This document shows, piece after piece, positions 1-21,516 of a stretch of 21,516 nucleotides of DNA; the first letter of the stretch is position 1, and every line of letters begins with the position of its first letter. The translations under genes and the position numbers were made by a program. Origin of the DNA: Physcia stellaris (taxonomy: Eukaryota > Ascomycota > Lecanoromycetes > Caliciales > Physciaceae); contig JABSSW010000123.1 of the NCBI GenBank assembly GCA_018902385.1, positions 1-21,516 of the forward strand, given 5' to 3'. A model generated the notes under the pieces. The model saw only the letters and a list, made by a program, of their open reading frames with translations, was not told the DNA's origin and did not search any database.

Positions 1-584
1 TCATTGTGTTACGTTTTGAAAATCGAACGTAAATTGTCGATCGTTTTTATTTTCAAATTGATGAGCAAATCGAACGAATGAACAACGTCGTGAAACAATT
101 TTTTCGTGTTTTCGTCAATTTCGAGCAAAATGATTGAATAAAATTGTTGTTAAAGATCGAATTCGTTTACGATAACGGCTCTTGTCATTTGAGACGTTTT
201 TCGTTCGAAATTATGTTTGAATATTTATCTCGCGTGTTTTCGAAAAAACGTGAAACAAAATTAAATTCAAATTCAGCAACCAGCGCTGAGCATTTAGTTG
301 AACTATTTCGAATATTGAAAAACAATTTATTCGTGGCAAACAACGACAAACGATGTATAAAAACGAACGCACGAAATCAATGTCATACAGACGTCGAAAA
401 TTACGTGAATCTGAACGATAAAAACATCAAAATTAAACGAAACAAGAAATTGAAATGAAAATTTTTTGAATCGTTTCAATTTTAGAATATAAAAAATCAA
501 TTTATCGTTTAAATTTATTGAGCGTTGACGCGTTACGACGTTTTTCGCGTTTTTTGAAAAAATTGATTTTAAAAAAAAAAAAAA
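1..584 (+). pseudogene. 3' end of decayed Ty3/Gypsy polyprotein (integrase C-terminus), copy A
   Basis: Read from about 70 in one frame, the translation follows the Gypsy integrase core end. There is a DGQTERxN-like segment (seen as DEQIERMN, 61-84), then a segment like QYLRxFVNFEQxDW, then an EFxYNNS-like segment (IEFVYDNGS, about 157-183) and a SPFE-like site. The tryptophan of the DW pair is a stop codon, TGA at 135-137. The frame stays open to 458. A second homologous stretch follows at 516-584 (TATTGAGCGTTGACG at 516-530, also at 5843-5857). The element begins left of the window. It is non-functional. The family assignment is firm although residues are heavily altered. Confidence 0.75.
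571..584 (+). other. A-run, probable decayed polypurine tract before LTR 1
   Basis: Fourteen A's lie just before the start of the LTR homology. A 12-A run sits in the matching place (5906-5917) before LTR 2. Gypsy elements have a purine-rich second-strand primer immediately upstream of the 3' LTR, and a G-rich tract would become A-rich under the mutation seen here. The assignment is inferred from position and from the pairing of the two copies. Confidence 0.4.
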
Positions 585-1799
585 CGCGTCATCAGCGTTT
601 TTGAATTTTCTATCAAATTGAAAATATTGAACTCGACGAACATAAAAATGAAAATGCGAAAAAATTTTATGAAATCGAAATCGTCAAATGACAAAATTTT
701 CAAAACAAATGAAATTTCAAACAAATTTTCAACGAATTCGATTTTATTATTTCGTGAAATGAAAAAATTATGAAAACGCGATTTGAAAATTTGCGTCGTT
801 TGTCGGCGTTTTCGAAAAACTTTGCGACAATTTATAACGAAAATTCGAAAAATCTGATGTCGATAAAAACAAATCGTCAATCGAAAAAAGTGAGTTGAAA
901 TATTTATTGCATATTAATTTTCGTTTTGAAAATTTTGTGTGCTATTTATTGTCAGAATTTACGACAAGCATGAAAAGTTGAATTGTGTCGAAAACATTTT
1001 CAGAAATTGCTGTTTCGATCTGATCGAACGATGAGTCGTTGAATAAAAATGTGAAATGAAATAAAAAAATTTGAAAATCTGAATATTGATGCGATCGCGA
1101 CTAATGGTATTTATCGCGTTGCGTTCTTCGTGATATCGATGTTGATATTCAGTAAGAAAATGAAAAAATGAAAAAATGTTCGAATTCAAGACTTTTGTCG
1201 ACAAATCAATTGTCGATAAGTATTATCGAGAATTGTGAATGATACGAAATCAAACATTCGATTATAGAAAGCAACAAGCAATTGATTCATCAAATTATGC
1301 TTTTTTTGAATCATTCAAAAAATGTTTTCAGATTTTTAACGCAAACTGATTATTGAATTCGAGCAAAAATATTTCGAAATGCAGAAAATCACGATCATAA
1401 TGATTTTTCAAATCAATGCAAAATCCAAGACAAACAGAACACGTCAAGACAAACAAAATGCGTCAAAATTTTTGTTAGCATGTTTGATTTCAAGAAATTT
1501 CGATGTTTAAAAAAAAACGTATGTAAAAAATAAAAATTCAGAATTTTCGAAGTGCGATTCGCATTTCGTCAAACAATTCGATTATCGAAATTCGAATGAT
1601 TTCGAAAAAATCAATTTCAATCATTTTACAATTCGATCGACGATAAATTTAACAAGTTCATACTGTCCAATCGAAATCGCTCGAATTCGTACGATTGAAT
1701 AGATAAAATGTGAATAAAAAGCAATTGCAGAACGTAATTTGTTCTGTAACGATTAATAAATCAATATATTACATTTCAAGTTATACATCTTTGATGTCA
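585..1799 (+). repeat. LTR 1 of Gypsy element (degraded)
   Basis: This segment is homologous along its length to 5918-7175. Matching blocks include the one around 968-1040 against 6310-6375 (shared GTCGAAAACATTTTCA), GCGATCGCGA at 1091 against 6435, the block at 1260-1345 against 6610-6690 (shared GCTTTTTTTGAAT), and an end block near 1780-1799 against 7157-7175. The left edge is set by the A-run and the right edge by the loss of similarity. Exact TG..CA ends cannot be read because of mutation. Length is about 1.2 kb. It may serve as 3' LTR of copy A and 5' LTR of copy B. Confidence 0.65.
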
Positions 1800-2900
1800 A
1801 TAATCCATTAGACTATACTATTTCTAGTACGAGTTTTACAGCAATTCAAACAAAATAAATCTAAAAACGACTATAATAAGCGCAAAAAAGACGAAAAAAC
1901 TTCGACGAAAAAAAAAACAATAATCGATTTCGATTCAACAAAAATCGAAAAGAAAAAAACGATAAAAAATTCAGATTTGATAATTTTAATCAAAAATCAG
2001 TCAAATTCAAAAATTATGACGTTGAATCAAAAACGAATTCAAAAATATTGTGAACAACAATAAATGCAAAAATTGCGATAAATCGAACTGTATTTTCAAA
2101 AAACTGTAAGAACAAAAGTCGAAAAAACATACATGAAAGATAACATTCGACTCGAAATCAAAAAATAATCGATTTGATGATTTTCAATCAAACTGACACA
2201 ACGAAAAATTCTATACTGAATGACGAAACTGATTTTAATTTTGACGAGTCGTTTACGATCGATATCGAAATCCAAAAACGTCGAAACGTCGTCGAAAAAG
2301 CTTCGCGTGACTAAATACAAAAAACATGATCAAAATAAATAAAGAATCAGACGAAAAAAACAAATTAAAATTCGAAACAATCATGAATTCAGAAGCAAAA
2401 AATCAGTTTGATAAATAATATTTTTGTTAAACAATTTGAATTAGAATTATTCAACGTGTCTAGTTGCGAAACAATGATTATCGATAATCATTTTTCAAAA
2501 TCTATGACGTTTATTTCGTGCATTCGAAATGCAGAAACGAGAACAATGTGAATCGTTTTTTCAATGATAATTTTCTAGAAACGAATCTGACATGAAACAT
2601 GACGTTAAATCTGTCATGAATGCAATTATCAAACGCAAAAATAAATTGAAAAATCGACAAAATCGAATCGTGATCATTGATTGTAAAATCAATTTTTTCA
2701 TCGTAAATCGTATCGAGAAAATCGAATCAAAAAAATTAATCAGCGTTGTCGTCGATGACAAAAAACAGATTTTCGTCATGTTTGTACGAGTTTTTCATGA
2801 CGAGAAAAAGAACATGAATAACGTACATATCGAACGACGAACACAAATTGATTCGATTCTTGCGAAAATAAAAAATAAATCAAATATTAAAAATTAAATC
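1800..2900 (+). pseudogene. decayed gag/protease part of Gypsy copy B (weak)
   Basis: This stretch lies between LTR 1 and the reverse transcriptase, where gag and protease belong. Around 2064-2106 a frame reads KCKNCDKSNCIFKK, which could be the remains of a CCHC zinc knuckle, but the spacing and the histidine are not convincing. A 101-codon open frame at 2592-2897 is lysine-rich and leads into the sequence just upstream of the reverse transcriptase. No active-site DSG/DTG protease motif was found. Assignment is by position only. Confidence 0.4.
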
Positions 2901-2929
2901 ATATTCGAAGTTTTGAAGAAATTCGCTGA

Positions 2930-3850
2930 TCTGACAGATGAAAACAAAACATACGAATTATTTGATGCGAATCAGACGATCATGCTATTGATTTGAAATC
3001 AAACAAAAAATTTTTACGATTTCATTTATTCATTGTCAAAAAACGAATTTAAGATATTACGAGTTTATTTGAACAAATATTTCAAAAACGATTTCATCAA
3101 ATTTTTCACTTTTTCAGTCAAGCATCAATTTTGTTCGTCAAAAAAAAAAAAAAAACAAAATTCTGAAATTATGTGTGAATTACAAAGATTTGAATCTCTT
3201 GACGATAAAAAATAAATATTTTTGTCGTTAATCGATAATCTAAATCGTTGAGCAAAATTCGCATTTATATCAATCTCGATATGATAGCAACGTACAATAA
3301 ACTACGTATCAAAAAAAAAACGAATGAAAAACGACGTTCAAAACACGATACGAACATTTTGAATATATCGTTTTATTTTTCGATTTTACTAATGCATTTG
3401 CGACGTTTCAAAATTTCGTCGATAAAATTCTGATCGAGCGATTCGATTTCACTGTCATAATTTATTTGAACAATATAATCGTATATTTCATGAACGAAAA
3501 ACAACTTAGCATCGAAAACGTCAAATGAATGCTAAATCGCTTGCGAAAACACAAGTTTTTAAATCAATATGAAAAAGTGTAAATTTTCAAAAACAGCATT
3601 GACTTTTTAAATTTCGTTGTATTTTCAAAAAAATACAAATGCAAAAAAATAAAATCGATGTTATACAAAAGTGATCGACGCTCAAAAACGTGTCAAAAAT
3701 TCTGAAATTTTTTTGAATTGTGCAATTTTATAAACGATTCATCAAGAACTTCAATAAGTTAACATTATTTTTAATTTCAATGCTAAAAAAAATCAACAGA
3801 ATTTCATAAAAAAAAAAATCAAACGAAAACGTAATCCGAACAAAAATCAA
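2930..3850 (+). pseudogene. decayed Gypsy reverse transcriptase, copy B
   Basis: Several family landmarks occur in order but in different frames. DHAIDL at 2978-2995 matches the usual lead-in. FIYSLSKNEFKILRVYL at 3018-3068 corresponds to the PIYSLSxxELxxLREYL segment. A KIR..LDxIAxYNKLRIK stretch at 3254-3318 corresponds to the motif around the first catalytic aspartate. YLNN at 3463-3474 stands where the catalytic YLDD belongs, so both aspartates are lost. FYKRFIKNFNKL at about 3727-3765 matches the FYRRFIKNFSKL connection. In-frame stops and indels disrupt it throughout. It cannot be active. Confidence 0.8.
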
Positions 3851-3879
3851 ACAAAAATCACAAAAAAACGATTGTCGAA

Positions 3880-4400
3880 TAACTTTTTGATTTTCGAAAT
3901 TTACGAAACTTTCAAACGTTTACGAGATGCATTTCTGAAAACATTTATTTTGTAACATTTCGATTCGACTAAATTCATACGTGTGAAAATCGACGTTTCG
4001 AACAAAACAATAAATGAAATTTTTGTCAATTCGACGATCAAAATCATTGACATTCGATAATTTATTTTTTCAAAAAAATGATTTGACGAAATGCGATTAT
4101 GAAATTCACGACAAAAAATTTCTGATCATAATTTTCGCATTCAAACAATGACGTCACTATTTCGAAAAAGCGAAAAAACAAATATTCGTTTTGACGAATC
4201 ATCGAAATTTCAATCGTTTCGTGATCACAACGAAATTATCGTTTCGACAAATACGATGAACGCAAAAATTGTTTCGTTACAATTTCGTAAATCGATTATC
4301 GTTTTGACAACAAAAATTTTGCAAACAATTTGTTTCGACGATTTGATTATATGATGCAATTGAAAAAAAATTGAAAACAATCGTCAAATTCTGACGCGTT
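3880..4400 (+). pseudogene. decayed Gypsy RNase H domain, copy B
   Basis: From 3890 a frame reads ETFKRLRDAF, then HFD and IRVKIDVSNKTI, matching the family's LKxAFxxAPILxHFDP...VETDASxxAI. After a frame shift, DYEIHDK at 4095-4115 and RHYFE match NYEIHDKELLAI...WRHYLEG. The tryptophan of WRHYLEG is TGA at 4149-4151. In the same frame a segment matching LTDHKNL is followed by RQIR-TGA at 4257-4259, where the family has RRQxRW. Both conserved tryptophans have thus become the same stop. A 68-codon open frame at 4148-4354 overlaps this region in another frame and is only a shadow. Confidence 0.8.
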
Positions 4401-4559
4401 TGCGACAATTTCTGCAATCGATTTCGAACGAATTTCAAATTTGCGTGAACGAAATTAAAACAACGATGCTCGAATTCAATAATGAAAAAAACAAATTTGC
4501 GAATGATTTTTTGATTTTCAAAAATGTCGTCAAACGTGATTATCGATGAATGAAAAATA

Positions 4560-5917
4560 TTAATACTGAATAACGACGATTTTCAGTCGATCAACGAAAT
4601 GTTTGCAAAAAAACATATTTACGAACATGATGTTGCATACGACGATAAAATCATTAACAATTTCGTCGAATTGATACGTTATTGTTAAATCAAAATTCAT
4701 GCGCGATTCAAATGAAACAAAAACTAATTATTTTGATATGTCACATTCGCATTGACAAAACGAAAAAAATATTGTGACACGATGATTGTCTGTACGTTTC
4801 GTCAAATTTGAAAAAAAATGTTATAAAAACAAATCTGACAATTTTCTCGTTGATCGTTTCGAAATAAAACGTATTTTCTTGAATTGATACGAAAAAAATA
4901 TTATTGATTTAATCAAAAACGAAACAATTTCGAAAAAACGTCGAACACGATTCGACATGCGTGCACAAATAAAAAACATTGCGAAACATGTGCTATTTGC
5001 AAAAAAAACAAGACATTTCGTCGCAAATGTTATGAAAAATTTCGTTTCTTTTTATATCGAAATTCAAATGAATTGATTTTTACAATGAATTTCGTAACAA
5101 ATTTTCAAAAAGCAAAACATGAAATGAAACGACGTATGATACAATATTCGTTGTGATAAATCGATCTAATGAAATGACATTACATTTATCGCTTGAAAAC
5201 GATAATCGCAAAAAATCTCGTCGAAATCTTAATTCGAAAAATGCATTTAAATTTCATGATTTTAAATCGTCGATAACAACAAACAGAAACTCGATTTTTA
5301 TCGCTAAATATCATGACGCATTATGTTATATTCTGAAAATAAAATTGAAATTATTAGATTTATCGTTTCGCAAACAAATGATCGAAACGAAACGACAAAA
5401 CTCAATCATGAAACAATATTTCCGAATTTTTGTCAATTTTGAACAAAAAATGACTGAATGAAACTACTGTCGATGATTGAATTTGTTTATAACAATAATA
5501 AAACATGCGTTAAGCGCAAATGTAAATCGTTCGAAACGATACAAAAATACACGTTAAATGTTTTCGAAAATTTTGCGAGCTTTAAAGTTAAATTGAAATC
5601 TGTTAAAAAGCGTGTCAGTGATCGAACTGATGAAAATACTGAAAATCGATTTAATTTACGTTCAAAAAGCAACAAATCAAATACAAAAATACAAAAATCA
5701 AACTGATGAGTTTCGACGTGAAAAATTACGTTAACTTGTCGACGTCGAAAATATTCGTATCGAGCAACGACAAAAGTTGGAAATGAAAGTGCTCGAATGC
5801 GTTAAGTATTGAATACAATAAAAAATGGCATCGCGTAAATATATTGAGCGTTGACGAATTACGCAATGTTTTCACGTTTCGTTGCTCCCGAAAAAAATCG
5901 TATTTAAAAAAAAAAAA
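4560..5917 (+). pseudogene. decayed Gypsy integrase and C-terminal tail, copy B
   Basis: YDTIFVVINRSNEM at 5135-5176 matches the YDxIxVVVDRxTKM strand of the DDE core, with the aspartate changed. About 5270-5350 reads like the SDRGxxFxSxFWxALCxxLGIKLKLS segment. 5395-5440 carries a QYFRIFVNFEQ stretch identical in layout to copy A. After a one-base shift, the conserved DW is followed by TGA at 5455-5457. IEFVYNNN at 5476-5499 corresponds to EFAYNNS. The 5' third (4560-5100), where the HHCC zinc finger should be, is too decayed to read. The tail shares the 516-584 block of copy A. Non-functional. Confidence 0.8.
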
Positions 5918-7175
5918 CTTCGTTAAAATTAAGTATCGTCGGATAATAATCGACATCGAAAAAACGAAAAATTAAATTGATGAAAAATATTGAATCAAAT
6001 GCATTCTAGACAGCAAAATTTACAAAAAAAAACAAATTTCGAACCGTCGTATAGCGAAGTCGAAATTTTATTATCTCGTTGATAAAAAATTACGAAAAAC
6101 GTATTTGAAAATTCGTTTCAATGATCGAACATTTTAAAAATATGCTCAAAATTTATTATGAAAAATCCGAAAAACGATGTCGATAAATTTACGAATCGTC
6201 GACGCGTTCGACGTCAAATAAATGTAATTTTCACGATAAAATCGTTGACAAAAAAAATCAACATTTCGCATTTGATTCGATCTCATTTGTTATGCAAAAC
6301 TTACGACGCATGAAAAACTGAATCTAGTCGAAAACATTTTCAAAAATTGTTGTTCGATTTGATTGAACGTTGAATATGAATGTGAAATATGTTATTGAAT
6401 GCAACGATAAAAATTCGAAATTTGATATGTCAATTGCGATCGCGATTATTCGAATTTATTTCGTTTAACAATTTGCAATAACATATGAGCTCTGATATAC
6501 GAAAACAGAAAAATGAAATATGCAAAAAAAATTCGAATTCGATTTCGTTGTCAACAAATCGGCTATCGATCATCGTATCGAAAATTGTGAATTGTACGAA
6601 ATCAATTATCAATATTGAAAGCAACAAACAATAAAATCGTCAAATCATTGCTTTTTTTGAATTATTGAAAAATGTTTTTAATTTTTAACCTTGAAACTGA
6701 TTGTGAATTGCGAAAAATATTCGATCACGAAAATTACGATCTTGATAATGATTTTCAAATCAACGATTTTCGATGCGAAAATGCCAGCGACCAATGATTT
6801 TCAATCAAAAAAATATACAAATTTAAAAATTTTGTTACAAAACAAATGAAAAATTTTGATCGTTTCAAAAATTTCGATGTTAAAAAAAAAACGCATGTAA
6901 AACATTCGAAATTCAAATCGACATAAATATGATCGAATTTCGATAAAATCGAAATATGTAAATGATCGCGTCTGAAAACAAACGTCGAATTCGAAAAAAT
7001 GTTGTTTGCGTTTTTATCTACAAACAAACAGCAAATCGAATGATTTGCAATTTGAAATTCTTTATTTTCTTTATTCGTACATTTGTATATAGCGAAAAAA
7101 ATAATGACTAGAATTCTGATTTTTTAAAAATTAATCTAATTGCTCCAAATCGGAAACTATACATTTCTGATGTTA
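5918..7175 (+). repeat. LTR 2 of Gypsy element (degraded)
   Basis: Homologous to 585-1799, with the matching blocks named there. It begins right after the A-run 5906-5917 and ends near 7175, where similarity to LTR 1 stops. It is about 40 bases longer than LTR 1. Point differences and indels are many, so the copies are old, or were mutated independently after duplication. Confidence 0.65.
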
Positions 7176-9800
7176 CATTTCGTATCTTACAAAAAATCGA
7201 TTTCGTAAACAAACAACATGAAAAATTCATTATCGAAATTCAATACGTCGCGAATTTTCTGCGATAATCGTACGTTTTGTTGACGATTGCGTCGTTTTAT
7301 TTTGATTTTGATTACAGCGTCGATTTGAAATTTCAAAATCGCAAAAAACGAAAAAACAATTGATTTTTTCATTTTTTTGCGATTTTTTTTTCAATTGATT
7401 GACGATTTATTTTAGTTGTTTTAGCTATGACGACAATTATATTGAATTTTTCCAATCGTTTTCGCGTTTGAGAATTTGAATCAATTTGCAGGAACAATGA
7501 ATATCATGACGTTGATGATTGAAAAACGCTAAAAAAAACGATCAAAACAATAAAATGTTGCTTAGAAAATTTTTGCACTTTCGAATCTCGATATGAAATG
7601 AGAAAAAACAATGAAATAAAATCGAATAACGTCGAAAACGTTGAAAAACTGAAAAAAACGCAATTTCGAAAGATAGAAATTTCGATGAAAAAAATGTATA
7701 TAAAAATTTGAAAATTGAAATTTGAACATCGTATCATTGCAATTTTCATACAAATTCGTTTTGTTTTTGTTTTTATTGATTATCAATTTACAAATTTCAA
7801 AACGTTGTTCGATTATTCAAATATCAAAATGATTTTCAAGCGTCGTTTGATTATTTTTCTGACGATTTCGACTTTGCATTTGCATTTTTGCATTTTCTTT
7901 TTCGACATTTCGTCGTTCAGATTTTTTCGTTGAAACAATTTTTTTGAACTTGTTTTTTTTTTTTTTTCGTACGATGAGAATACTGGCGTCGACTTTTAAT
8001 TCTGTCGCGTCGTTGTTTTCAGTATAAATACGATACAAGCATCAGAAAACGCTGAAATGAAAATTGAAATGAATGATCGTGATTGAGAAACGAATTTCGA
8101 ATTCATAATCATGAATTTGATACGCAATGAAATCGAAAAATTAAAAAAAATTCATAAATGCGTTCGATTAACAATGAGAAAATTGTTATGTTGATCGATT
8201 TGAATTTTGAAATCGTTAACGATCGCATTGTAAATGAAATATTGCATGACAATTTCAATCAATCAATAAATAAATTTTTCAATATAACAAAATCGTTTAT
8301 TAATTACATCAGAACGTTTCGAATTATATCGTTGTCAATTTCGATAATATCGACGAAAAATCATATTATCAGCAAAATTCATTACTCAAATCAAAATTTT
8401 TTCGTCATGTTGTTGAATGAACGTTTTTAATTATTGCTCGAAAATTTAAACTCAATTACGTGTCGATTTGACGTATTTGTCAAAAATTTTACATTTTTTC
8501 GTCGAGATCGAAACAGATTTTCAATCGTTGATACATCGATTCGTTGTCGTATCGTTGATTGCGTCATCGTCGATTCGAACGAACGTCGATTGATTTTCAA
8601 AAATGAAAAAAAATTGAATTTGTTCATTTCGACATTCACGATTAAATGAATTTTTCAACACGAAAATTTTTATCGTCGTATGATCATATCAAAATTTTTT
8701 TAAATAACGTGCATTTTGAAAAGCGCATGATTTTCGTCATTAAATATCAACATTGAAATAAGAAACAATGACGTTTCGTCATTTTAAATCGATGAGACGA
8801 TTTTCAAAACGATGATAATTGCAAACGATGAATAATTCGTCGTGCAAAAAAAAAAATTACATCGTGATTGTGTAAAATCGAAATTCAAAAAAGTTTACAT
8901 TTTGTATAATTAATGATTTTATTGCATATCATTGCAAAAAATCGTTGATTGAATAAAACAATCAAAATTGAAAAAAATCAATTTCAAAACGTATTGTGAA
9001 CACATATTGTTTGTAAATCGTATTTTCGCTCGTTATGAATTAAACGTGTGTTAAATTACATACAAAATCTTCACGATTTTTGAAAGTTTTGCGAAGAAAA
9101 TTTTCGAAACAATGAATTTATCACATTCGATTTCAGCGACGACGACGAGTTTTTATTTTCGAAAAATTTTTGAATTTCGCTCGTCGCGTCATGATGCAAA
9201 ATGAATTTTTATTATTATTTTTACATCACGTTTTGAATTGTTCAAAATAATTATTCAACAAAACAATGCGTTTTCGCATGTTTTCAAGTATATTCAAAAA
9301 CGAATCGTCGAAATGAGAATGTTTTTATGAATTGATTTTCGCAATTTTTCGATTTTAATTTCATTGAAAAATATGAGCAACATTTAAACGACGAATCGAT
9401 ATCATCGTCGATTCAAATTCACAATCAAAAAAATTATCATGAAAACGTTGAATGAAAAATGAAAAACATTGAATCAAAAAAATTGAAAATTTCATCGATT
9501 TAAATGTAACGTCGCATTCAAGCGATTTTGATTGCAAATGATGATCATATTTATTATTAAACATCATAACGATTTCGAAGACAATGAGATAAAAAAAAAA
9601 AAAGAATTATTCAAAAAAAAAGAAAAATGATGATTTTGAGCGATTTTTAGCAATTTAATCAATTTTTATCGTTTTGCAAAATTGTAGAAAAATCAAACAT
9701 TTTATCATATTAAATGATTTTTTTGACATAAAGGCATAAAATTGTCTGAATTTTGAGTTTTCGAAAACGATCATTTGCAACATTTTTCGAATCATAACAT
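7176..9800. repeat. unidentified degraded AT-rich repeat DNA
   Basis: This has the same composition and CpY depletion as the Gypsy part, so it was probably also repeated DNA. Open frames of 60-90 codons occur on both strands (for example 8158-8430 plus, 7817-8038 minus), but none reads like a known retrotransposon, transposase or host domain. It does not continue as a third Gypsy gag that I can align to 1800-2900. I see no RNA gene and no terminal inverted repeats. Confidence 0.5.
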
Positions 9801-9906
9801 GATTCCGAATTAGGCTAGCCTTGATGCCAAGGTCAGGTTTCACGTGATGCAAATCACTGCCTAAACAAGCTAGGGTAAGGGCTGCAGCATGCAACGCTAA
9901 ATGGCG

Positions 9907-10239
9907 CTATTCACCCGCTGTGGAAGGGGACTGTACCCGTCGAGCTCGTATCGTCGAAGAGAATCCCATCTTGATAACGTGCCCGTATTCGTGGATGTAT
10001 CTGTAGAGCAGGTCAGATGCCTTAGGACAGTACATCTTGGTCTCATCGTGCGACTTGGGTTGAAAAGAATAATTAAATTGCCTGCCAACCTTATGGTACG
10101 AAGCGACAGGGTAGCATTCTTCATGCTGGCCTTCGACGATGGAGCTAAACTAGGGCTCAGGGTATGTAGTGATGAAAAGTATGTACCCAAAGAAATAATC
10201 TCTATTAACACTCAATATATTTAATATTCTAGACACCAT
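9907..10239 (-). CDS. unidentified small gene or gene remnant at the island edge
   Basis: On the minus strand an ATG at 10239 opens 29 codons, ending in TAG at 10152-10150. The same frame then continues for 80 codons to a TAG at 9909-9907. The second part has a protein-like composition rich in aromatic and charged residues (for example VASYHKVGRQFNYSFQPK, ASDLLYRYIHEYGHVIK). It lacks its own long ATG-started frame, so it is easy to miss. The internal stop could reflect a small intron, a sequencing indel or true decay. Antisense frames of about 105 codons cover the same bases and look less natural. I do not recognise the product. It lies 71 bases downstream of the RAD2 stop, same strand. Confidence 0.35.
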
Positions 10240-10310
10240 CGCTATGCTGCAAAGCCTCCTCTTCCCAGGCCAAACGCCTAAAGTAGCATGCTAATCGGAA
10301 ATGGGACATT

Positions 10311-13300
10311 TCACTCGTCATCAGCGACACCCTTTCTCGATCGCTTGCTCTTCGTGCCTTTTCGAGATCTCTTCGTCACGGCAAAGTCATCTTCATCGTC
10401 ACTTTTAGACAACTCGGACGCCGGGCTTTCCTGAGCAGGTCTCTTCTTTGGTGCCCGTGATTTTCGCTTCGTGTTTGAACGAGGATTTTTGGCTTCATTA
10501 TCGGTCTTCTGCGTCGTTTTATTCTGATGTATTGATGTACCGGATGAGACTCCATCAGCAGTCACGCTCTCTCTATCCCCCGAAAGTCCCTCATCTTCGC
10601 CTATGGTTCGGTCCTTGGCTCTTGCATGCAGCCGACCCAAGGCATTGGTCATCCTCTTGCTTTTTTCGACTCTTCTCCTGGGTGCGAAAGCACCATCAGC
10701 CGATGGCTTATTGGCTCCTACTCCTACGCTGCCACCAAAGAACTGCGTTATGTTGGCTTGTGTACCCTCGTTTTCTCTACGATTCATGTCTTTCACTACT
10801 GGCACGAGCACCTCGTCAGTCCGCTCTTGACTCCAACCGATCGTTGCCATCAGAAAGCCGCGGAGGGCATCAAGGTCCGGAACACCCCAAGCGAAGGGTG
10901 ATGGGTCATGATCGACTTCTGGATGCAGGTATGCATCATCAACGCGTCTGTCCGGGAAGCCATTGGGCAAGAAGATCTTTGCTGCATTCTTTTTGAACTT
11001 CTTGCGAAATGAAGAAGACGTATCTATGGAGCTAGCAGATTGCCCCAATTGAACAGTCCCCCACCACTCAGAGAAAAACTCCAGATTTTCGAATTCGGAA
11101 AAGAATTTCTAGTGCTGTTACTGGTCCCACAGAAGGAAGGCCCTCAGTGTAATCACTCCCGAGTAGGTGGGCAATGCTGACCAATTTGGATCGAGTGAGT
11201 GAATATTCCTTCTCCAGATCAGAGGCTAGATAGCACTCGACAAACTTGGCTTGATTGAACATGTTTTTGTATACGCGCGTTCCACCAAATAAGAAAAACA
11301 TCAGAATCATCAGTCACAATTCCATCTACTAACCCTAGACTCACAAGCTCGGCGCACTGGGCTTCGGCTTCCATTGGTGCGGTAATGTAGGGAAGACCGA
11401 AAAACTTAAGGAGTTGCTGACATTCAGTGACCATGATCTGGGAGACTTCATCGGCATCTCGCCGATCCTTCTTCTGTTGCGTGCGGAGTTGGCGCAATTC
11501 TTTCTCGTACTCTTCGGCAGATTGAAGATGAGATTGAGGATTCAATGTTGCTGAGAAGCGAGCATGTTCCTCAGCTTCCACTGCCATCTGCCGCATCAAG
11601 TCTTCTTCTTCTGGGTCAGAGTATATCTCCGCTTCGTCATCCAGCTGCATATTATCAAAAGTGTCTTCAGTAGGGAGGGTTGGAACAGCGGTCGGAATCG
11701 GCGACGGTTCCGTGTGAGGGCTTCTGTTATATTTTAGGATTAAGGTCGACATCTTCGAAGTCAGACGCAGAGGGTGAAGCTGGAAAGGCAACGCCCGGAG
11801 ACCCGCCATCTGCTAGAGATGGAAGAGTTGACTGCTGTGGTACTTTTGGTCCATCGTTTTCTAGATCGCTTTCTTCCCACTCGATCAGCTCATCACTGTC
11901 GGATTCTTGCTGAGATGAGGTCTTCGCTGGTGGAATCGCCACTGGATGATCTCCGTGCCTAGGGGGCGACTCATATATCATGGGATGCGGTTTTGGTGGT
12001 TCGGCTCTGGTTAAGTCTGCTACATCGCCCATCTTCATCTCTGAATCGACCGGAACGGATGCTCCCACTATGACATCGTCATTTGTTTCGTTGTCCGATG
12101 ATTCAACCTCAATGACCTCTTCAACGCCCGCCTTGGCAGGGTCGAGATCTATGACTTCTCCAGTCTCATGTCGATGCAGTCGCGCGTGATGTAGTAGATT
12201 GGATTCCTCGCCTGAAATATCTGGTTGATTTGATTGTCCGCTGCCGGGGTCTTTCCATTCCTTGGCCTCCTTTGTGGCCTCTGCAGAGAACCATGGAGGT
12301 AAGTCTTGTTGCCTTTTCTCGGTTGTTGTTGGCTCTTTTTCAAACCCGCCGCCTTCTTCAACAATACTCTTCTTTTTCTTGCCAAATACTGACTTGCCGA
12401 GATTTATCGACTCAAGGGCAAGGACCCTCGAAGCCTCGAGATGTGGACAAATCGCTTGATTTTGTAGCGATTGGCCTGGACGGATCCTTACTTGGGACAG
12501 GACCTGCATTGTCTAGGCTCATGCTTTCATCTTCGCTGAGCTTATCATTCGTGATTCTGTACTTCTCCAACGAGCCCAAGCCCATTGCCCTGGCATTAGT
12601 TTGATGTGCAAAGTCGCGACCAACCTTTGCATTTCTTCGATTGAAGTCTAGAGGTTTATCGATATCTGGGCCTACATAACATGCTTTGTCTGCGGGCTCC
12701 TGGACCTTCTTGGCCGAATGATCTTCAAAAGCCTCTAAAGACATAGCAATTGCCTTTTGCAATTCATCATCCTCACATGCATCGTGAAGAGGGACATCCT
12801 CGAATAAGACGTCTACATCGCTCTGTGCAGGCTTTGTCTGCCCTCTTCGGGGCCTTGGGGAATAAACAATGAGTCAGGGTCTTCGTCAATTGGTTCTACT
12901 GCATCCTCAATGAAACCAGCTTCCTGCTGACGCGCCTGATAGAGGGCTTTCCTTTTTTGGCCATGGTGTCATTCGCACCGACTTTCTGGGCAGTGTCTGG
13001 TCTAGCGGTATTCGCTGAACGTTTGGGAGACGATTGAGCCCCTCGATCGGGACATCCTCGAACCCGTCTTCTTCCCATTCGTCTCCTTCTATATTTTCGA
13101 TGGCAGTCTCTTTGCCAAAGGTTTCAACATCGATGGGCTTATTACGTTCTCCTTCGTTCTTGTTGCTCACCACCCAAAAAGCCCATCCACCCTCAACACC
13201 GTCATTTTTGACAAGAACATACTCTTTGCCCCTTTCTCCTGCAACTCTTCCTCCACCGTCAATGTTGAAGATCGCATCATCACCGCTCATACCGTTTAGA

Positions 13301-14295
13301 TTCATCAGCCGCTGAGTCAGTTCATTCCTCTCTTTCACCCTTTCGATCTGAAATTTGGAAAAAGCCATACGGTCCGGAAACATGATATCCAATTGGTCTT
13401 TGCTGTAGCCCATTCTCAATCGGCTTCTCAATCGTGCTGCGTTGAGAATATTATAACGATCGGTAGCTGGTAGACTGATAAAGAATTGACTGTTGAAATC
13501 AATCTTGCTGAAATCATAGATATTGATGTCTTCTCCAGTATGAAATTGCCTTGCATATTCCTCTAACTCTTCAGGACTCATAACCTTCGGATCATCTGGC
13601 CCGCCCATCTCAGAAAGACCGACAGGCAGGTCAGGTAAGTGGTATGCGTCTTGTTTCTTGAACAATCGCTTTTGTTGGCGTTCTTGTGCACTCATCTGCA
13701 ACTCGTCGACATACACGAGATCGTCAGGGACCTCCTCTTCCACAGGGCCAATTGCAGGTCTATCCCTTTCTTCCCTTCTTTTTCGCTCATCCTCCTCTGC
13801 GCGCCTTTGCATCTGTACTGCCAAGAGCTTCCCCGCTGTTCGCACCGCATCTTCCCTTCGGCCTTCTCTTCTCGCCTTTCGGGCTCCAATGGTCTGTCGC
13901 TTCAAGAGGGTGCACCACCATCAAATACAAAGACAGGCTTTATACCGAAGAAGAGGAGCTTGCATATACGGCGAAAGAACCCCACGACGATGCGAATTGC
14001 GAAAGAGCATTTCCCTCTTTGTCACGTACAGCCTTTAGGAACTGGTATATCCATATCGATGCATCAACAGCAAAGTCTTTTTCTTATTTAGGGTCTCGAG
14101 CTTGATTGGGCGCCTGAATGAAATCTCGCGATTAGCGTCTATATCTACGATCACGACTCGGGTAGCATGTCAATCTGTTTTACACTGGGTTGCGGACTTC
14201 GCTCACATGCAACCAACGAGCAGATAGAAACGAATAGGGATTACAGATACGTACGCACACGGTTGGACCACAGTCCAAAGGCCCGTAACGCCCAT
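10311..14295 (-). CDS. RAD2: RAD2/XPG (Rad13) structure-specific endonuclease, frame broken by indels
   Basis: This is the nuclear 3'-incision nuclease of nucleotide-excision repair. The start at 14295 reads [14 protein letters not shown], the family N-terminus. A 141-nt intron (14254-14114) follows, then RPIKLETLN. The N-nuclease half shows [17 protein letters not shown] and VFVFDGG. The long acidic spacer holds a UIM-like [13 protein letters not shown] (about 12732-12775). The I-nuclease half has [20 protein letters not shown] and TDDSDVFL, with the acidic metal ligands present, then [15 protein letters not shown] of the H2TH/helix-hairpin region. A PIP-box-like QANITQFF and a basic NLS-like tail ([12 protein letters not shown]) close it. 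Expected length, about 1,280 residues, is plausible. At least ten frame changes occur, for example at 14072-14082, 13901-13907, 13025-13027, 12953-12958, 12841-12843, about 11295 and 11099-11102. Residues stay conserved on both sides of each. The ATG at 13905 is internal, not the start. Confidence 0.95.
14114..14254 (-). other. RAD2: RAD2 intron 1
   Basis: Read on the minus strand, it begins GTACGT after codon 14 (..CCG TGT GC) and ends ATTTCATTCAG. Joining the exons restores Cys-Ala-Arg-Pro exactly as expected in the XPG N-terminus. Length is 141 nt and phase is 2. The fit of the joined residues makes this intron secure. Confidence 0.85.
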
Positions 14296-14624
14296 CGTTC
14301 ATTGACCTCAAGCCTTTCTACAGGCACGTCCAACGAGCAGGATAGCTTCCGCATTTTGCGGCATAAGAGCTCGCAGATGGGGTTGTAAGGTGGCTATGAA
14401 AGTGGCGATGGATTCGTCTTTCGAGTCAAGGAGCGCAGTCACGTGTCTGGTCTGGCCTTCTGGCGTGTCATTATCAAACGCACCACGTTGGTAGGACCAC
14501 CCAACTGAAACAGAACCTCCATTTTTCGGCATCGGACACTTTCTATGGTACTCTCGAGATGCATTCGGCATCCCAGGTCAACCATCTCGCCGTGTCCTCA
14601 TCGATGCTTGCTGATGGGGTTCGC
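14296..14624. promoter_or_regulatory. bidirectional promoter interval between RAD2 and WDR6
   Basis: The start codons of RAD2 (minus) and WDR6 (plus) lie head to head with 329 bases between them, so both promoters and 5' UTRs must share this interval. A CACGTG E-box palindrome sits at 14440-14445 (context GTCACGTGTC), roughly midway. An 87-codon minus frame at 14308-14571 has no recognisable content and is probably chance. No clear TATA element was seen. Confidence 0.55.
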
Positions 14625-17600
14625 ATGATTAAACAGATACAAAATTTGTACCCGTGACTGCTTTGGCCTTTGTACGCGTAGAGTCAAGGCTGCTCTTATT
14701 GTCTGGTGAAGGATCATACTTGCAAATCTACGATGGGCATAGACGGCTAGTAGAATGTTCTAGCAAAATCTTCGACTCTGAAGATATACGCCAATGGTAT
14801 CAAAGTCCGTTCCGACGAACAGTGTCCTGTCCACATGATGCTCGTAAGCAGATTGTGGCGTAGATGGAAGCTCAGTTTGCCTACTTGATGTCATGGCCAG
14901 ACTGAAATTGACGGAAAATCCCGAGCATAGTCATCAAAGTCATAGCCAAAAATCCAGGCGAAAGATTGGATCCAGGACGTATGCTTTCACCGTGTTTGAT
15001 GAGAGTTCTTCCACCTTTGACGCCATCTTATTGACCTCTCGCAACCGGTTACATGGTCTAAATTTCTCCCGAGGACTACCGTCTCATGAATCAAATCTAA
15101 TTAAGATACAACTGATCGCCGAAGGTCCGCCGAGTCTTTTGTATTGTGCTCATTCTATGGCCAGCAAAGGTCGTGGACTTGTTGCTGCAGGTAATATATT
15201 CGGGACCGTCTTCCTATGGTCTTTTTCCTGATATCCAAACTATACTACGTTCATCTCTACCTGTTTGCCATTCTCTACATTGCACACTGGTAGGTCACGA
15301 GGGTTCAGTCTTTGGCGTACGAATATCTGAGCCCTCTTCTGCGATCGGGCACGGTTTAGCGCGACGTCTCGTCGCAAGCTGCAGTGATGATCGAACTATC
15401 AGAGTATGGGAAATCAGCGGATTGGAAGACACGGGGCATGGATACCAGGCTGACGACGGCAGCACAAGCCCGGCTCGACAAGTTGCAACTGTTATGGGCC
15501 ACAAGTCACGCATTTGGGGTGTTAGATTCTTGCGTTGCAATCAAGGTCCGTCACACGTAATGTCGTACGGCGAAGACGGTAGCCTTCAGGTTTGGCGTAT
15601 GGATAGTCAAACGCGTAATCTGCCTCAAACCTCGGCGAATGTGCGATCTGCCGTGTACCATGAGGCGTCATACACGTTTCACACCGGAAAGAATATCTGG
15701 GCAGTAGATGTCCTGGATTCCCTTGCGTCTAATTCAATGGTTGCTTCAGGTGGTGCTGATGGGCGTATCGTTTACTACACGTTAAAGAGCCAGGGAGGGA
15801 GACTCGGTCTAGACAGGCTTTTCTTCAGCCAATCTACAATAGTAGACGTACGACTGAATGTACAGACGAAGGTGAGGACGCCCACTACTACCCCTCAAGG
15901 CCCGCCGCCACACGCGGATCCTTCCAAGCTTGGGGCAAAGGTCATTTTCGATGAATTGAAAGGGGACTGGGTGTTGGTTCGAGCCTTGACAAGTGCAATC
16001 CCAGCATACCCTACTGGTAAGTTCACAGGACTAGCAACGTTTCAAGAGCGTAGTTCAACAGATCCGGTCTATGACTTGGAATACCTGTATCTAGAGAAAG
16101 GTCAATTCACAACTCAACAAGGGATCACTCTCTCAGCTACACGGCGCTACGTTTACCGCTACGAATTGGGCTCCAAGCAGATCAGTGTCTGGTTCGTCAA
16201 GCCAGAAGATGGTCTTACGGTTGATTATCTCTTCCATACACTCGAGTTCCCGGCGGTAACACCTGATGCAAAGTGTAGGACTTTGAAAGCGCACCACCTC
16301 TGTAACGAGGACAACTACTGGGCTGAGTACACTTTCTCTCGTCATGCCTCGAGGCTGAATAGCTTCAATGTAAATTATGTCGTCAAGGGACCAAACAAAG
16401 ATTACATTGCGGACGCTATTTATACACGTCAATCAGAGCCTTCTGCAGATGCCGCCAGAGTCTCATCAAGAAACCTCGAATGCAATGGACTCCTCCAAGG
16501 CATTGATGACGATATCAATGCTGCTGGTCGCTTTGAGAGTCCAATCTCAAGTAATGACTCGTTTAAGTCCTATGCATGGGTGGACGAAAGCAGCTTTTTA
16601 GTAACTACTGATCAAGGATGGCTCTTGCTGGGATCCGTGGAAGTTGAGAATTCGTCGGAGGCTGGTATATCCAAAGAGATCATTAATCTGGAGTCCGATT
16701 TTGCAAGACTCTGCGTTCAGATGTTCTTGTATTCTCAGTAACGTCGAAAGTCATGGTCTTGTACTGATCACAGGTCAAAGATGGGGCAGTGTACTGCTTT
16801 AGAGGCGCAACAAGGACTATCGCGCTCGTCACCAAATTACCAAGAAAAAGTTGCGTGTCTTAGAGCATCGTGCCTAGACTCAATGTCCGATAGTCGTCGG
16901 CATCGCATTTCTCGACCAGAATTTTCCGCGTTTGTATCGTGCCTAGGTACTTCTACAGCCTATCATCTTACGATCAGCCATGAAAACGAAACGTTCCGTT
17001 GCGTTCAGATACAGCTGGATCTGCCCGCAGTTTCATACCCGTCCTTTCTGTTCGTGGTATCGCAGATGATACTGATTATAGGGTTTCGTAACGGAGCTTT
17101 GGCTTTTTATCACCTTTCAAACAACGTTTCCCGGGCAGTCCTAAGCTGATCAAATCATATGTCCACGGCAGAGAGACGGTTTCGGCCATGAAGACTACTC
17201 CCCTTCAACATCCAAATGGAACACTCGGGTCCATATACTTTGTCAGTGCTGGTAGGGATGGTAAATACGCAGTACACCTCCTAGACACTTGTCTAGCCCA
17301 GGAGTCCTCCACTCAGATGAGCTTACAAACAATACATATCTGCAATCTACCCTTCGGCCCTAATATTGAAGGCATATCTTTTGACCGGGAAACCCAGGAA
17401 CTACTCGTATGGGGTTTTCGTGGCAAGCTCTTCATTGTTTGGAATGATTCTCTGAAAGCGGAGGTCACGTCTGTTGAATGCGGAGGTGCATATCGCAACT
17501 GGGCTTACTTGCCTTTACAAAATACGAAAGGAGGAGGAAATCTCGTGTGGACTAAAGCTTCATCGCTGAACATATTCCTGCAATCCCAACCATCACATAA

Positions 17601-18904
17601 TGTCTTGCGGTATGGCGGCCATGGCAGAGAGATCAAAGCTATATCATTGTCACCGCCTATCAAGGGATATGATGGTCCCAGCGTACAGTATCTCGCGACC
17701 GGTGCTGAAGACACTACGATTCGGGTCTTCAACAGCACTCGTGAAGACTTGAATTACATGTGAAGGACAGCCAGCGCCTCACTGTTCTTTCAGATCATAC
17801 CGCAGGCATACAGAAACTACGCTGGTCTTCAGATGGCCGCTTTCTTTTCAGCGCAGCAGGACGTGAAGAGTTCTTCGTGTGGCAAACGCAAGTAATTCCT
17901 TGTTTTGGACTGGGAGCAATCTGTCTATCGAAGTGCCCCCGTGTGACCGATTCGGAGATCTACGAATCATGGACTTTGATATCATTGACGTTTTGAAAGG
18001 AGGAGAAATGACGTCGAGTTATATTGTGAGACCGTCTACTCAAACTCAAGCTTACGGGTGAGTTGGTCAAGTCGAATTTGAAATTGAATTAATCATCCAA
18101 CAGATCTTCTACTACGATCCTGCCAACTCACAGAATCCCTTTCAGCTTATGTCCATTGGCAACTATAGTAGCCACTGCCTCACCCAGTCGTCGTTTTTGC
18201 GCATCAGCTCCCAAGTCCACTGCTGTACTGCGAGTACGGACGGGCACATAGCTCTTTGGCCACTTGATTTAGCATTCAGTGGACGAGATACCAACGGTCC
18301 CAAGGAAGCTTGCTGGAAGTACGATACATCATTGGGTTCGATCACTGTCAAGGACAGTCTGTATTTCACAAAGCGTATTCAGGTACACCAGAGTAGTATA
18401 AATTGCATGACAACTCTCAATCTATCGGACGCGGATGTTCTGATAGCGACTGTTAGCGACGACGGTGCTTTGGCATTTATTCGTGTTAGTGGAATGAGCA
18501 CGCCCCAGTCGACGCACGGGAATCAATCCGGGGACCCAGAGGGAAGGTTCTCAAGCTGCTCCCAAGTAAAGCAATCAACGATATTGCTACCGAAAGCCCA
18601 CAGTTCTACGGTCGACGCTTTGATCTACTTGGGATTGGATAGAGGAACAGACGGTTCCGAAAAGGGGCATCGATTCCTGACCTGTGGTAAGGACCAAAGA
18701 CTCAAAACGTGGAAGCTAACAGCAAAGCTTGAGCAGCCCGGGATACACGGCTTCACGGTCATCAGGGAACAGGATACTCATACTTCTATTGCGGACGTCT
18801 CTTCGCTTGAGTGTATGGCAGTTGACCATCCGCCATGTGGCGCTGTGCTAGTAGCAGGTGTTGGATTTGAGGTACGACGCATAGATCAGACTCTAGAATG
18901 TTAA
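14625..18904 (+). CDS. WDR6/Trm734 (Rtt10) WD40 protein with an inserted DUF6314-like domain
   Basis: WDR6/Trm734 partners the Trm7/FTSJ1 methyltransferase for 2'-O-methylation of tRNA wobble position 34. Conserved segments appear in order: VTALAFVR near the start, DWIQDV (about 14966), DAILLTSRNRLHGLNFS, GHEGSVFGVRIS with CSDDRTIRVWEIS, MGHKSRIWGVRFL, YGEDGSLQVWRMD, ASGGADGRIVYY, then the inserted domain. After it come TTDQGWLLLGS, SAGRDGKYAVHLL, CGGAYRNWAYLP, GGHGREIKAISLSP, TGAEDTTIRVF, SSDGRFLFSAAGREEFFVW, CTASTDGHIALWPLD, TCGKDQRLKTWKL and VLVAGVGFEVRRID at the end. The proposed start at 14625 needs one extra A in the AAAA run near 14641 to join VPVTALAF. The alternative is ATG 14654. 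At least eight frame changes occur, the clearest an extra T in 15222-15226. Continuing similarity on both sides argues against a pseudogene. Confidence 0.9.
15944..16429 (+). other. DUF6314-like domain inserted between WD repeats of WDR6
   Basis: About 162 residues lie within a single uninterrupted frame (15146-16741), between the WD strands ending GGADGRIVYY and the segment TTDQGWLLLGS. Features are FDELKGDWVLVRAL at the start, then GKFTGLATF, RRYVYRYELGSKQISVWFV, VDYLFHTLEF, HHLCNEDNYWAEYTF and VVKGPNKDYIADAIYTR. This matches my memory of the DUF6314 pattern: LxGxWxLxR, GxAxF, RRYxYR, HxCxxDxYxxxY, VxGPxKDY. The fold resembles lipocalin-like barrels in general outline, but that is inference. 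Function is unknown. Confidence 0.65.
18058..18103 (+). other. WDR6 intron
   Basis: It begins GTGAGT and ends CATCCAACAG, 46 nt. Removing it joins YSNSSLR to IFYYDPANS in phase 0, which matches the expected strand pattern of the protein. Without removal the upstream frame meets TGA at once. Confidence 0.75.
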
Positions 18905-19306
18905 AGATAACAACGATATGTTCCTGTTTTGAAGTCGTGGCCCGATGTTAGTCAATAACAGAATTGTCTTACTACTATGGAGATGGGAACGTCTGTATCC
19001 GTTGTTTTTTGGTCCTCACTCAAGCTTAAGATGAATTTCCTACTGGAATGACCCGCTGATGATACCAGCAATTGACTGGACAAGAGACTATCGACCGCTC
19101 TGAGATCCGAGTATTATCGAGGAGGGAATCACAGACACGACCGAGGGGACGCCATTTCGCCGGACTTCCGGGCACTAATGCAATCCGCTTCGACGTCATC
19201 CCTACCCCGGAGCCTCCCGCACGATACCAACCGCGGAGTGAGCTCTCGCCGAAGCTTCAATATGGTGACGAAATCCCCAACTTTACTAATATTGCTTCCT
19301 ACCGCA
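18905..19306 (+). promoter_or_regulatory. WDR6-SSADH intergenic region
   Basis: About 400 bases between the WDR6 stop and the proposed SSADH start. It must hold the WDR6 3' UTR and the SSADH promoter and 5' UTR. An open frame runs through from 19072 but has no recognisable sequence before the mitochondrial leader. I see no clear TATA box, poly(A) hexamer or other gene. Confidence 0.35.
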
Positions 19307-21163: not shown

Positions 21164-21516
21164 GGGAACTGTTCTTGTCATAAGCAGTAATGTGATCCTT
21201 TTTAATAAAGTAGCTTCAGTGTTCGACACAATTTTGAATTTGCTCATGAGATGTCTAGACATAGATTTTATTGAATTGAGTTCAATCTTGGAAAGACGTT
21301 ACAGAGACTTGTGGTATTAATAAACTTCTGTCTTGAAACTCGAGAACTTCAAGTATTCGTGCGAAGCACCAAGAAAGAACAAGCTTTGGGCATTCACATC
21401 GAATCGATTGAATCGGAAAAGGGGTGGCAAAGGAGGGTTAAGGTTGTCGGCAAGCTCCTCGGCTCCTTCCCGTCTGTCTTGGCCTTAAATGCTAGTGCGG
21501 TCGAACTTGGGGCCAG
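21164..21516 (+). other. SSADH 3' flank, no supported gene
   Basis: An AATAAA at 21204-21209, 41 bases past the stop, and another near 21318 could direct polyadenylation of SSADH. The rest, including the GC-richer last 100 bases, shows no frame or motif I can assign. A gene could begin beyond the window edge. Confidence 0.4.

Follow-up and report, generated by a model that had tools for sequence, protein, structure and literature searches.

Repeat DNA of Physcia stellaris is mutated from C to T at CpC and CpT, a probable variant of RIP

Described systems and their targets

The RID-dependent RIP of Neurospora crassa resembles the mutation described here in changing C:G to T:A in repeats, on both strands, with new stop codons that break elements while unique DNA is left intact; both fungi have genes of the RID and DIM-2 types. 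The two differ in target. The available part of PMC5496416 gives the Neurospora order as CpA>CpT>CpG>CpC, and that of PMC2621366 includes one alignment of Tad1 copies with CpT change exceeding CpA. Here the order is CpC>CpT>>CpA>CpG, the products are TpC and TpT, the stops are chiefly TGA, and TpA/ApT is low. Signatures at CpT as well as CpA are described for Botrytis, Sclerotinia, Magnaporthe, Colletotrichum truncatum and Anisogramma. These share the CpT target, and the first three have a RID/Masc1-type gene, as here. Unlike the present genome, all five also target CpA, which in C. truncatum is partly a matter of other families, and no CpC signature is named, the term CpC occurring 0 times in PMC4352252, PMC6180176 and PMC10998396. 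The CpG/TCG hypermutation of basidiomycetes (Microbotryum, Rhizoctonia AG8) is likewise a context-biased C-to-T change in repeats, whereas in the present genome no site is better protected than CpG. Filamentous ascomycetes also carry RIP-mutated 45S rDNA pseudogenes with C-to-T change, as here, but those covered in the accessible portion of PMC5555474 are mutated mainly at CpA, with CpT in N. crassa, rather than at CpC and CpU.

Across 1,239 fungi, a screen from 2025 concludes, in the sections available, that a preference for CpA is common to RIP-like defences (PMC12543289). In the open literature searched, the targets are CpA, CpT beside CpA, or CpG; CpC first with CpA spared was not found, and within that same scope the statement in an earlier note on this DNA, that no RIP aimed at CpY (C before a pyrimidine) is described, held. 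The terms CpC and CpT each occur 0 times in the available text of PMC11969663, and CpC occurs 3 times in that of PMC5602860, on Ramichloridium luteum. The target rule that we describe nearly reverses the one known from fungal RIP, which is aimed at CpA, and the process is probably a variant of RIP.

A CpY-depleted tract with a sharp end

The window is the whole stretch of DNA analysed, 21,516 nucleotides of contig JABSSW010000123.1 (C123 below). Its features are as follows.

1..9803, no strand: repeat DNA from retrotransposon remnants, depleted in CpY by C-to-T mutation, recognised by dinucleotide counts and a sharp end at ~9803; open at the contig start
88..1416, + strand: diverged duplicate of 5406-6763 at ~66% identity, both CpY-depleted
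2700..5000, + strand: repeated segment, found in 39 other places at 75-97% identity (40 of 334 candidate places scored, self included)
5406..6763, + strand: diverged duplicate of 88-1416
7250..9780, + strand: second repeated segment, with long matches on contigs C28 (95%), C78 (87%), C4 (80%) and C1 (80%), and a match on C33 at 83% identity across 471 bases
9804..9903, + strand: end of the repeat, aligned in C28, C78, C4 and C1; of normal composition and unmutated
9906..21516, no strand: flank that serves as unmutated control; composition normal, matches to host genes (XPG I-region, WD40/DUF6314, aldehyde dehydrogenase)

From six 60-base rows, the earlier note had claimed a depletion of CpC and CpT visible on both strands, with CpG above expectation and CpA normal. 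A tally of all 16 dinucleotides, comparing 1-9800 with 9800-21516, bears this out. The first part has a GC content of 0.275, and its 1341 cytosines are followed by A 572 times, C 16, G 604 and T 149; base composition alone predicts ~183 CC. Observed/expected ratios are 0.09 for CC and 0.06 for GG, 0.34 for CT and 0.31 for AG, against 3.25 for CG, 1.06 for CA, 1.31 for TG and 0.43 for TA. The second part, at GC 0.485, is ordinary (CC 0.85, CG 0.92, CT 1.09, CA 1.13). Across 1-9600, cut into 16 full steps of 600 bases, CC ranges over 0.00-0.37, CT over 0.07-0.71, CA over 0.74-1.36 and CG over 2.62-3.58; thus the depletion is general but uneven. Its edge is sharp, with 0 CC/GG dinucleotides in 8400-9600, 1 in 9600-9803 and 11 in 9810-9910. 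The mutated tract stops inside the repeat, at this one boundary, and leaves the flank untouched; there, 9900-13400 has a full-length match to C28 alone (97%) and 7 other matches of 32-36 bases.

Both of the usual RIP indices place 1-9800 on the side of no RIP: TpA/ApT is 0.44 (cut-off 0.89), so that this index is blind to the region as had been foreseen, and (CpA+TpG)/(ApC+GpT) is 1.33 (cut-off 1.03).

Such a composition could be classical CpA RIP misread, or a sequencing or assembly artefact of a single contig, and the window's contig is indeed error-rich. A three-way comparison gives the window copy 132 private substitutions and 131 indel columns, and the C28 copy 18 and 6, so C123 is probably, judging by sequence comparison, an error-rich near-duplicate of C28. 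The window copy has 32 CpG sites where its C28 sister has 1; a strand-specific CpG process, considered for this surplus, was rejected on the three-way comparison, which reads it as sequencing error in C123. At least 37 of 56 A-to-G changes in the window copy follow C, and the CpG excess of the window is probably in part such noise; the other 29 loci of the family are also high in CpG (2.68-4.48). Against an artefact or a misread CpA signal, all 30 family loci, on 26 contigs (25 besides the window's), agree, with CC 0.00-0.06, CA 1.13-1.32 and CG 2.68-4.48; CpA falls below an observed/expected ratio of 1.0 in none of 60 element loci (L001-L030 and L035-L064, a few of which overlap); and an rDNA pseudogene, described below, shows the same contexts. 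Together with the polarised counts that follow, these results refute both forms of the explanation, to which we attach a negligible probability.

Target order in polarised copies, rDNA and stop codons

The direction of change was read against L035, a relative of normal composition (CC 0.98, CT 1.07) that is Gypsy-type by its RT, RNase H and H2C2 matches. With both strands pooled over 11 mutated copies, C has become T at 4172 of 4271 CpC sites (97.7%) and 3897 of 4517 CpT sites (86.3%); for CpA, the usual though not universal target of RIP, the figure is 301 of 4311 (7.0%), and for CpG it is 135 of 3987 (3.4%). The preceding base has little effect (96-99% of CpC and 83-90% of CpT changed across preceding bases). 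Overall, 45.9% of C is changed to T and 53.1% of G to A; T-to-C stands at 1.9%, A-to-G at 1.2%, and no substitution of a non-RIP type exceeds 1.9%, so that, as in RIP, C:G-to-T:A transitions occur with nearly nothing else. The earlier note had asked for a family alignment tabulated by next base, and the outcome is the one it favoured, C-to-T at CpC and CpT and neither mainly at CpA nor evenly, but in the family of L035 and not the window's own (that of L003); the L035 family is the only one that can be polarised by a relative of normal composition. The note had held that less mutated copies already devoid of CpC and CpT would speak against it; the less mutated relative compared, L035, has both at ordinary frequency. 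A second polarised pair, the Copia-type L069/L070, was set aside: the two belong to different subfamilies (321 bases aligned at 57%) and L070 is lightly mutated.

These counts also bear on deamination of methyl-CpG, on a general mutation pressure towards AT and on selection relaxed in old repeats, any of which would suit copies that are AT-rich and broken. CpG is not lost; it is the best-kept site, 96% unchanged against L035 and raised in the family loci, context differences reach 29-fold, and other substitutions are as rare as given above. Methyl-CpG decay and AT drift are thereby refuted for the L035 family, and we give this group of explanations next to no credence.

The signature extends to other repeats. 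CC is at most 0.43 in 24 of 30 RVT_1 loci. A 45S rDNA pseudogene compared with the Rfam consensus, in six gap-free blocks picked from the consensus alignment, has the same context order: at upper-case consensus positions 17/18 CpC, 11/23 CpU, 0/18 CpA and 0/21 CpG are changed to U, and over all positions 3/50 CpA. The sole 5.8S match reported is mutated too. The stops within scored domains are TGA in 695 of 838 cases, TAA in 137 and TAG in 6 (TGA/TAA/TAG: RVT_1 250/33/3, RVT_2 401/101/3, DDE_1 44/3/0). This TGA surplus fits a CpY rule, because GG-to-GA change in TGG gives TGA, whereas RIP of the CpA type leads to TAA and TAG; the 137 TAA exceed a pure CpY rule unless they stem from the 7% of CpA changes or from TAG becoming TAA. 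The signature is thus common to Gypsy-type, DDE_1 and rDNA copies, and to Copia-type copies by stop type only. As for the window's own family, which the earlier note had called Gypsy, RVT_1 matches are carried by some copies of 2700..5000 (e.g. L003, the match that encloses the RVT_1 hit at C3:914737-915186), but two L003 frames searched gave no Pfam match.

As in RIP, repeats are affected and the unique stretches examined are spared, the methyltransferase loci being normal in composition. Exceptions among repeats are the last ~100 bases of the window's repeat and the pair L036/L037, which is 95% identical across 3.4 kb yet normal in composition. Leftover sites can be unequal between strands: L003 against L004 keeps 43 CpT and 140 ApG (same-strand pairs only), and in L048 the imbalance is 33% versus 18%. 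Whole-copy strand imbalance of this kind is known from RIP. Local strand clustering of leftover CpT gave no consistent signal in the 11 copies checked.

Our conclusion from these results is that the CpY depletion comes from C-to-T mutation directed at repeats and aimed at CpY, CpC before CpT; CpC is near-saturated, both strands are affected and the unique sequence examined is spared. Overall, the interpretation in the earlier note is supported.

Candidate enzymes and what the target rule means

The search for RID and DIM-2 homologues that had been proposed found both types: two RID/Masc1-type methyltransferase genes (contigs C5 and C6) and a DIM-2-type gene (contig C3). According to the part of PMC6709928 available, Masc1/RID proteins are marked by PCQ in motif IV, EQT or EET in place of ENV in motif VI, and a target-recognition domain (TRD) of ~80 residues. 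Both genes carry these marks: C5 has PCQ, EQT and a VIII-IX gap of 88 residues, and C6 has PCQ, EET and a gap of 81, with introns set by eye from GT-AG signals. The two are 40% identical over 305 aa, and B. cinerea RID has, in the record available, an EET triad like that of C6. The C3 gene has the ENV triad, PCQGFS, a BAH match below the curated cut-off and a close match (E 4.6e-188) to chain 9bap_A, which we take to be DIM-2. The PDB chain lists for the C6 first exon and for C3 include no chain named RID or Masc1.

On this footing we lean towards a process of the RIP kind whose mutator would be a Masc1/RID-type cytosine methyltransferase with its preference shifted from CpA to CpY, the EET paralogue on C6 being the likelier of the two. 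The host fungus would have, or have had, a C-to-T process aimed at repeats and at C before a pyrimidine, CpC ahead of CpT, with CpA and CpG nearly spared; its chemistry would be methylation or deamination at cytosine, as in RIP, and it would act before meiosis and may persist today. Against this reading of the enzyme, a canonical EQT-type RID is present yet CpA is spared; knowing that a genome has a RID is thus not enough to predict its target. Nor would two RIDs suffice to explain CpY, given that Phialocephala subalpina, in the account available, has two homologues with CpA RIP. A narrower version, which we hold as possible though doubtful, is that the EET RID is a CpY-specific enzyme beside the EQT one, having kept or gained a 3'-pyrimidine target after duplication and taken over the defence.

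A RID type is our first choice from the genes present, and the DIM-2-type protein its main rival. Under that rival, heterochromatic repeats would be methylated at CpT and CpC and these sites turned to T through a DIM-2-dependent branch of RIP, the RID types playing a minor part. The gene is present, and the 2026 review PMC13297926, in the part available, has Neurospora DIM-2 preferring CpT and RIP of old heterochromatic repeats needing DIM-2. However, functional Dim2 in Zymoseptoria tritici is associated with mitotic C-to-T at CA and almost no 5mC at CT (PMC8016269, as far as available), the tract ends sharply inside the repeat with the flank untouched (at one boundary), and CpC is affected ahead of CpT, an order not expected from a simple preference for CpT. 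We consider DIM-2 as the mutator unlikely.

Still less probable is direct action on single-stranded repeats by a cytidine deaminase from a different family, whether like AID/APOBEC or of unknown type. It would account for C-to-T alone, on both strands and at very high density, but the rule here is set by the 3' neighbour and hardly by the 5' one, whereas the AID/APOBEC enzymes known so far are guided by the 5' side. An APOBEC_N profile search had no match in the genome, nor in the control genomes.

RIP is mostly regarded as a CpA process, and indices of the TpA/ApT type are widely applied. Repeats saturated at CpC and CpT, with CpA nearly untouched, show that the target rule of RIP can vary and that a heavily mutated genome can score as clean in surveys built on such indices. 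For annotation, the chief mark here is TGA inside the frame of an element, and masking or reversal of RIP based on CpA would probably fail. RID methyltransferase activity is undetected in vitro in the portion of PMC13297926 available; two RID-type paralogues and a reversed rule make the choice of cytosine by RID a testable question. If the EET paralogue is indeed specific for CpY, the specificity of RIP would be evolvable, and comparing the short target-recognition regions of the two paralogues, within a single genome, could reveal its code.

Composition of the contig and the end of its repeat

The window is one complete contig (C123, 21,516 bases) of the 147 in this 44 Mb assembly. The earlier note had proposed that its first 9.8 kb are depleted of CpC and CpT, with CpA normal and CpG high, and dinucleotide counts bear this out: in this AT-rich repeat DNA CpC and GpG are nearly absent, CpT and ApG are scarce, CpA is ordinary and CpG stands at three times expectation. 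From ~9804 onward the composition is ordinary, with these gene-family matches:

Window beyond ~9804: XPG I-region, WD40/DUF6314, aldehyde dehydrogenase

The switch at ~9803/9804 is complete within a few tens of bases. Repeat alignments with contigs C28, C78, C4 and C1 reach 9903 or further, but the mutated tract finishes at ~9803; thus, at this one boundary, the mutation process has not spread into the flank, and the last ~100 bases of the repeat (9804-9903) are unmutated though aligned to other copies. Just past the repeat end lies a segment of 32-36 bases (9904-9939) that is found elsewhere and is perhaps a small inverted-repeat element; two cases are inverted pairs ~116 bases apart:

C5:308255/308371: inverted pair
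C61:210033/210149: inverted pair

The window and C28 (~480-493 kb) are near-duplicates, 97% identical over the stretch of the gene part that was compared (9900-13400) and likewise matched in the repeat part. Private changes number 132 substitutions and 131 indel columns in the C123 copy, against 18 and 6 in the C28 copy. On this sequence comparison C123 looks like an error-rich redundant contig of C28, and frame breaks in its genes are therefore not to be trusted.

Direction and context of the changes

In order to polarise the changes we took as reference state L035, an element on contig C52 that is Gypsy-type by its RVT_1, RT_RNaseH and Integrase_H2C2 matches, has a GC content of 0.509 and ordinary dinucleotides, and belongs to a family other than the window's own. 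Genome-wide, a further 23 places match it, none outside 63-75% identity. We aligned the 11 fetched loci whose match to L035 exceeds 1000 bases (70-75% identity), excluding shorter pieces and gap-adjacent positions and pooling strands. A reference independent of any element in the genome is the Rfam consensus, with which we compared a mutated 45S rDNA copy in six hand-chosen gap-free blocks, excluding more diverged, gapped blocks. The one 5.8S rRNA match reported for the assembly lies within this copy, and no unmutated 5.8S match was reported among the 39 of 2644 candidates scored.

C41:44399-47552: 45S rDNA pseudogene (L068), mutated at CpC/CpU along its whole length

Changes of C to T (or U) by following base
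Comparison; CpC; CpT or CpU; CpA; CpG
From L035, 11 copies; 4172/4271; 3897/4517; 301/4311; 135/3987
rDNA pseudogene, all positions; 37/47; 33/52; 3/50; 8/58
rDNA pseudogene, upper-case consensus positions; 17/18; 11/23; 0/18; 0/21

Tabulated by next base, as the earlier note had suggested, C-to-T changes in the L035 family are dominated by CpC and CpT, not CpA. Nor is L035, the less mutated relative, already poor in CpC and CpT, the outcome that would have told against the proposal. Given a background of 1.9% for T-to-C and 1.2% for A-to-G, CpG changes are close to background and CpA changes slightly above it. L035 is a relative rather than a demonstrated ancestor, but the direction is clear because other differences are nearly absent. 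The base 5' of the C has a small effect. The rare CpA changes prefer CAC (15%) and CAT (9%) over CAA (4.5%) and CAG (3.1%), which hints that a pyrimidine is favoured at the second position 3' of the C.

Extent among repeats and effect on reading frames

Window 2700-5000 recurs in at least 39 other places, with identities of 75-97% (of 334 candidates, 40 were scored, itself included), and window 7250-9780 in four long ones at 80-95%, plus 471 bases at 83% and one 91-base place. All 30 fetched loci of the former family, the window's own included, share the signature, with observed/expected ratios of 0.00-0.06 for CpC, 0.07-0.55 for CpT, 1.13-1.32 for CpA and 2.68-4.48 for CpG. CpC is exhausted while CpT ranges from almost none to half remaining, so CpC is mutated first. 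Between close mutated copies (12 chosen pairs), C/T differences lie chiefly at CpT sites not yet exhausted. The pattern recurs in 24 of 30 reverse transcriptase-matched loci (L035-L064, a few overlapping the first set), more weakly in three of these (L040, L051, L054), and the other six are of ordinary composition; among DDE_1 loci the CpC ratio is 0.03 in L072 and L073, and L071 is ordinary.

Three part-mutated loci, in which the early course of the process could be readable, are L040, L054 and L070 (GC 0.37, 0.29 and 0.44; CpC ratio 0.43, 0.11 and 0.79), with CpC below CpT in each. Two RVT_1 loci, L036 (C5:1165021-1168497) and L037 (C12:58812-62288), are 95% identical over 3.4 kb, of ordinary composition and with open frames, a long repeat without visible mutation; the C/T differences between them show just a slight bias towards CpY, that is, C before C or T (CC 38, CT 36, CA 26, CG 21). 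Remaining CpT sites are split unevenly by strand over whole copies, as if single events had each acted on one strand: L003, compared with L004, keeps 43 CpT and 140 ApG, and in L048 the leftover is 33% against 18%.

A GG-to-GA change converts the tryptophan codon TGG to TGA; CpA-type RIP would yield TAA and TAG stops.

Stop codons in domain matches
Domain; matches (stop-free); TGA; TAA; TAG
RVT_1; 150 (10); 250; 33; 3
RVT_2 (Copia type); 137 (4); 401; 101; 3
DDE_1; 10 (1); 44; 3; 0
All three; TGA 695 of 838 stops; TAA 137; TAG 6

TAA makes up a fifth of the RVT_2 stops, which exceeds the yield of a strict CpY rule; the surplus may come from the rare CpA changes together with TAG-to-TAA conversion, ApG being a target.

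Our conclusion is that C-to-T mutation in the repeats examined is almost certainly limited to CpY, and the process is very probably RIP-like and repeat-directed.

Candidate enzymes and known targets

A DNA_methylase profile search gave four matches in three genes, named here by contig (C3, C5 and C6), all at loci of ordinary composition. Of the RID and DIM-2 homologues that the earlier note had proposed seeking, the genome holds two of Masc1/RID type (C5, C6) and one of DIM-2 type (C3). The main rival reading, that DIM-2 is the mutator, has its candidate in C3, which carries ENV and PCQ and matches PDB chain 9bap (4.6e-188), a chain we take to be DIM-2-type; we consider this rival reading rather unlikely. 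In the PDB, the C6 first exon gave hits to bacterial and DNMT1-type chains, 9bap not among them. With introns (GT-AG) placed by eye, two removed from C6 and one from C5, C6 reads 508 residues and C5, measured stop to stop, 935. The two are 40% identical over 305 residues, share one intron position, and have a second common stretch with DGDF(L/M)RI (34% over 149 residues). C5 has PCQ/EQT and C6 PCQ/EET, with 88 and 81 residues respectively between motifs VIII and IX; the predicted proteins show EQT and EET triads coexisting in one genome. EQT or EET replacing ENV, and a short TRD, mark the Masc1/RID group in the excerpts of PMC6709928, which give EET for Botrytis cinerea and Pseudogymnoascus destructans; RID is listed for Ascomycota in a 2026 review (PMC13297926), and the enzyme set accordingly points most probably to a filamentous ascomycete as host. 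We lean modestly towards a RID-type mutator, with the C5 and C6 enzymes as candidates.

CpT is already known as a target. In the excerpts compared, most fungi are CpA-dominant, with one Neurospora Tad1 alignment in which CpT change exceeds CpA (RIPCAL, PMC2621366). CpA is also given for Phialocephala (PMC5148876), Zymoseptoria Dim2 (PMC8016269) and a 1,239-genome screen (PMC12543289), and for Monilinia with CpG-to-TpA and CpC-to-TpT double changes (PMC8959702). Others give CpA about equal to CpG in Trichoderma reesei (PMC5496416), CpA, CpT alongside CpA, or CpG in ten genomes (PMC4352252), CpA or CpT by family in C. truncatum (PMC6180176), CpA and CpT in Anisogramma (PMC10998396), and prevailing CpT-to-TpT in alignments of RIP-capable controls in an Ascomycota survey (PMC7882544). 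Unlike these CpA, CpA-plus-CpT, CpT-by-family or CpG targets, the P. stellaris repeats are mutated at CpC first with CpA spared, a combination not reported in those excerpts, subscription papers being mostly outside their scope. The main point needing explanation is that CpA is spared despite an apparently intact EQT-type RID.
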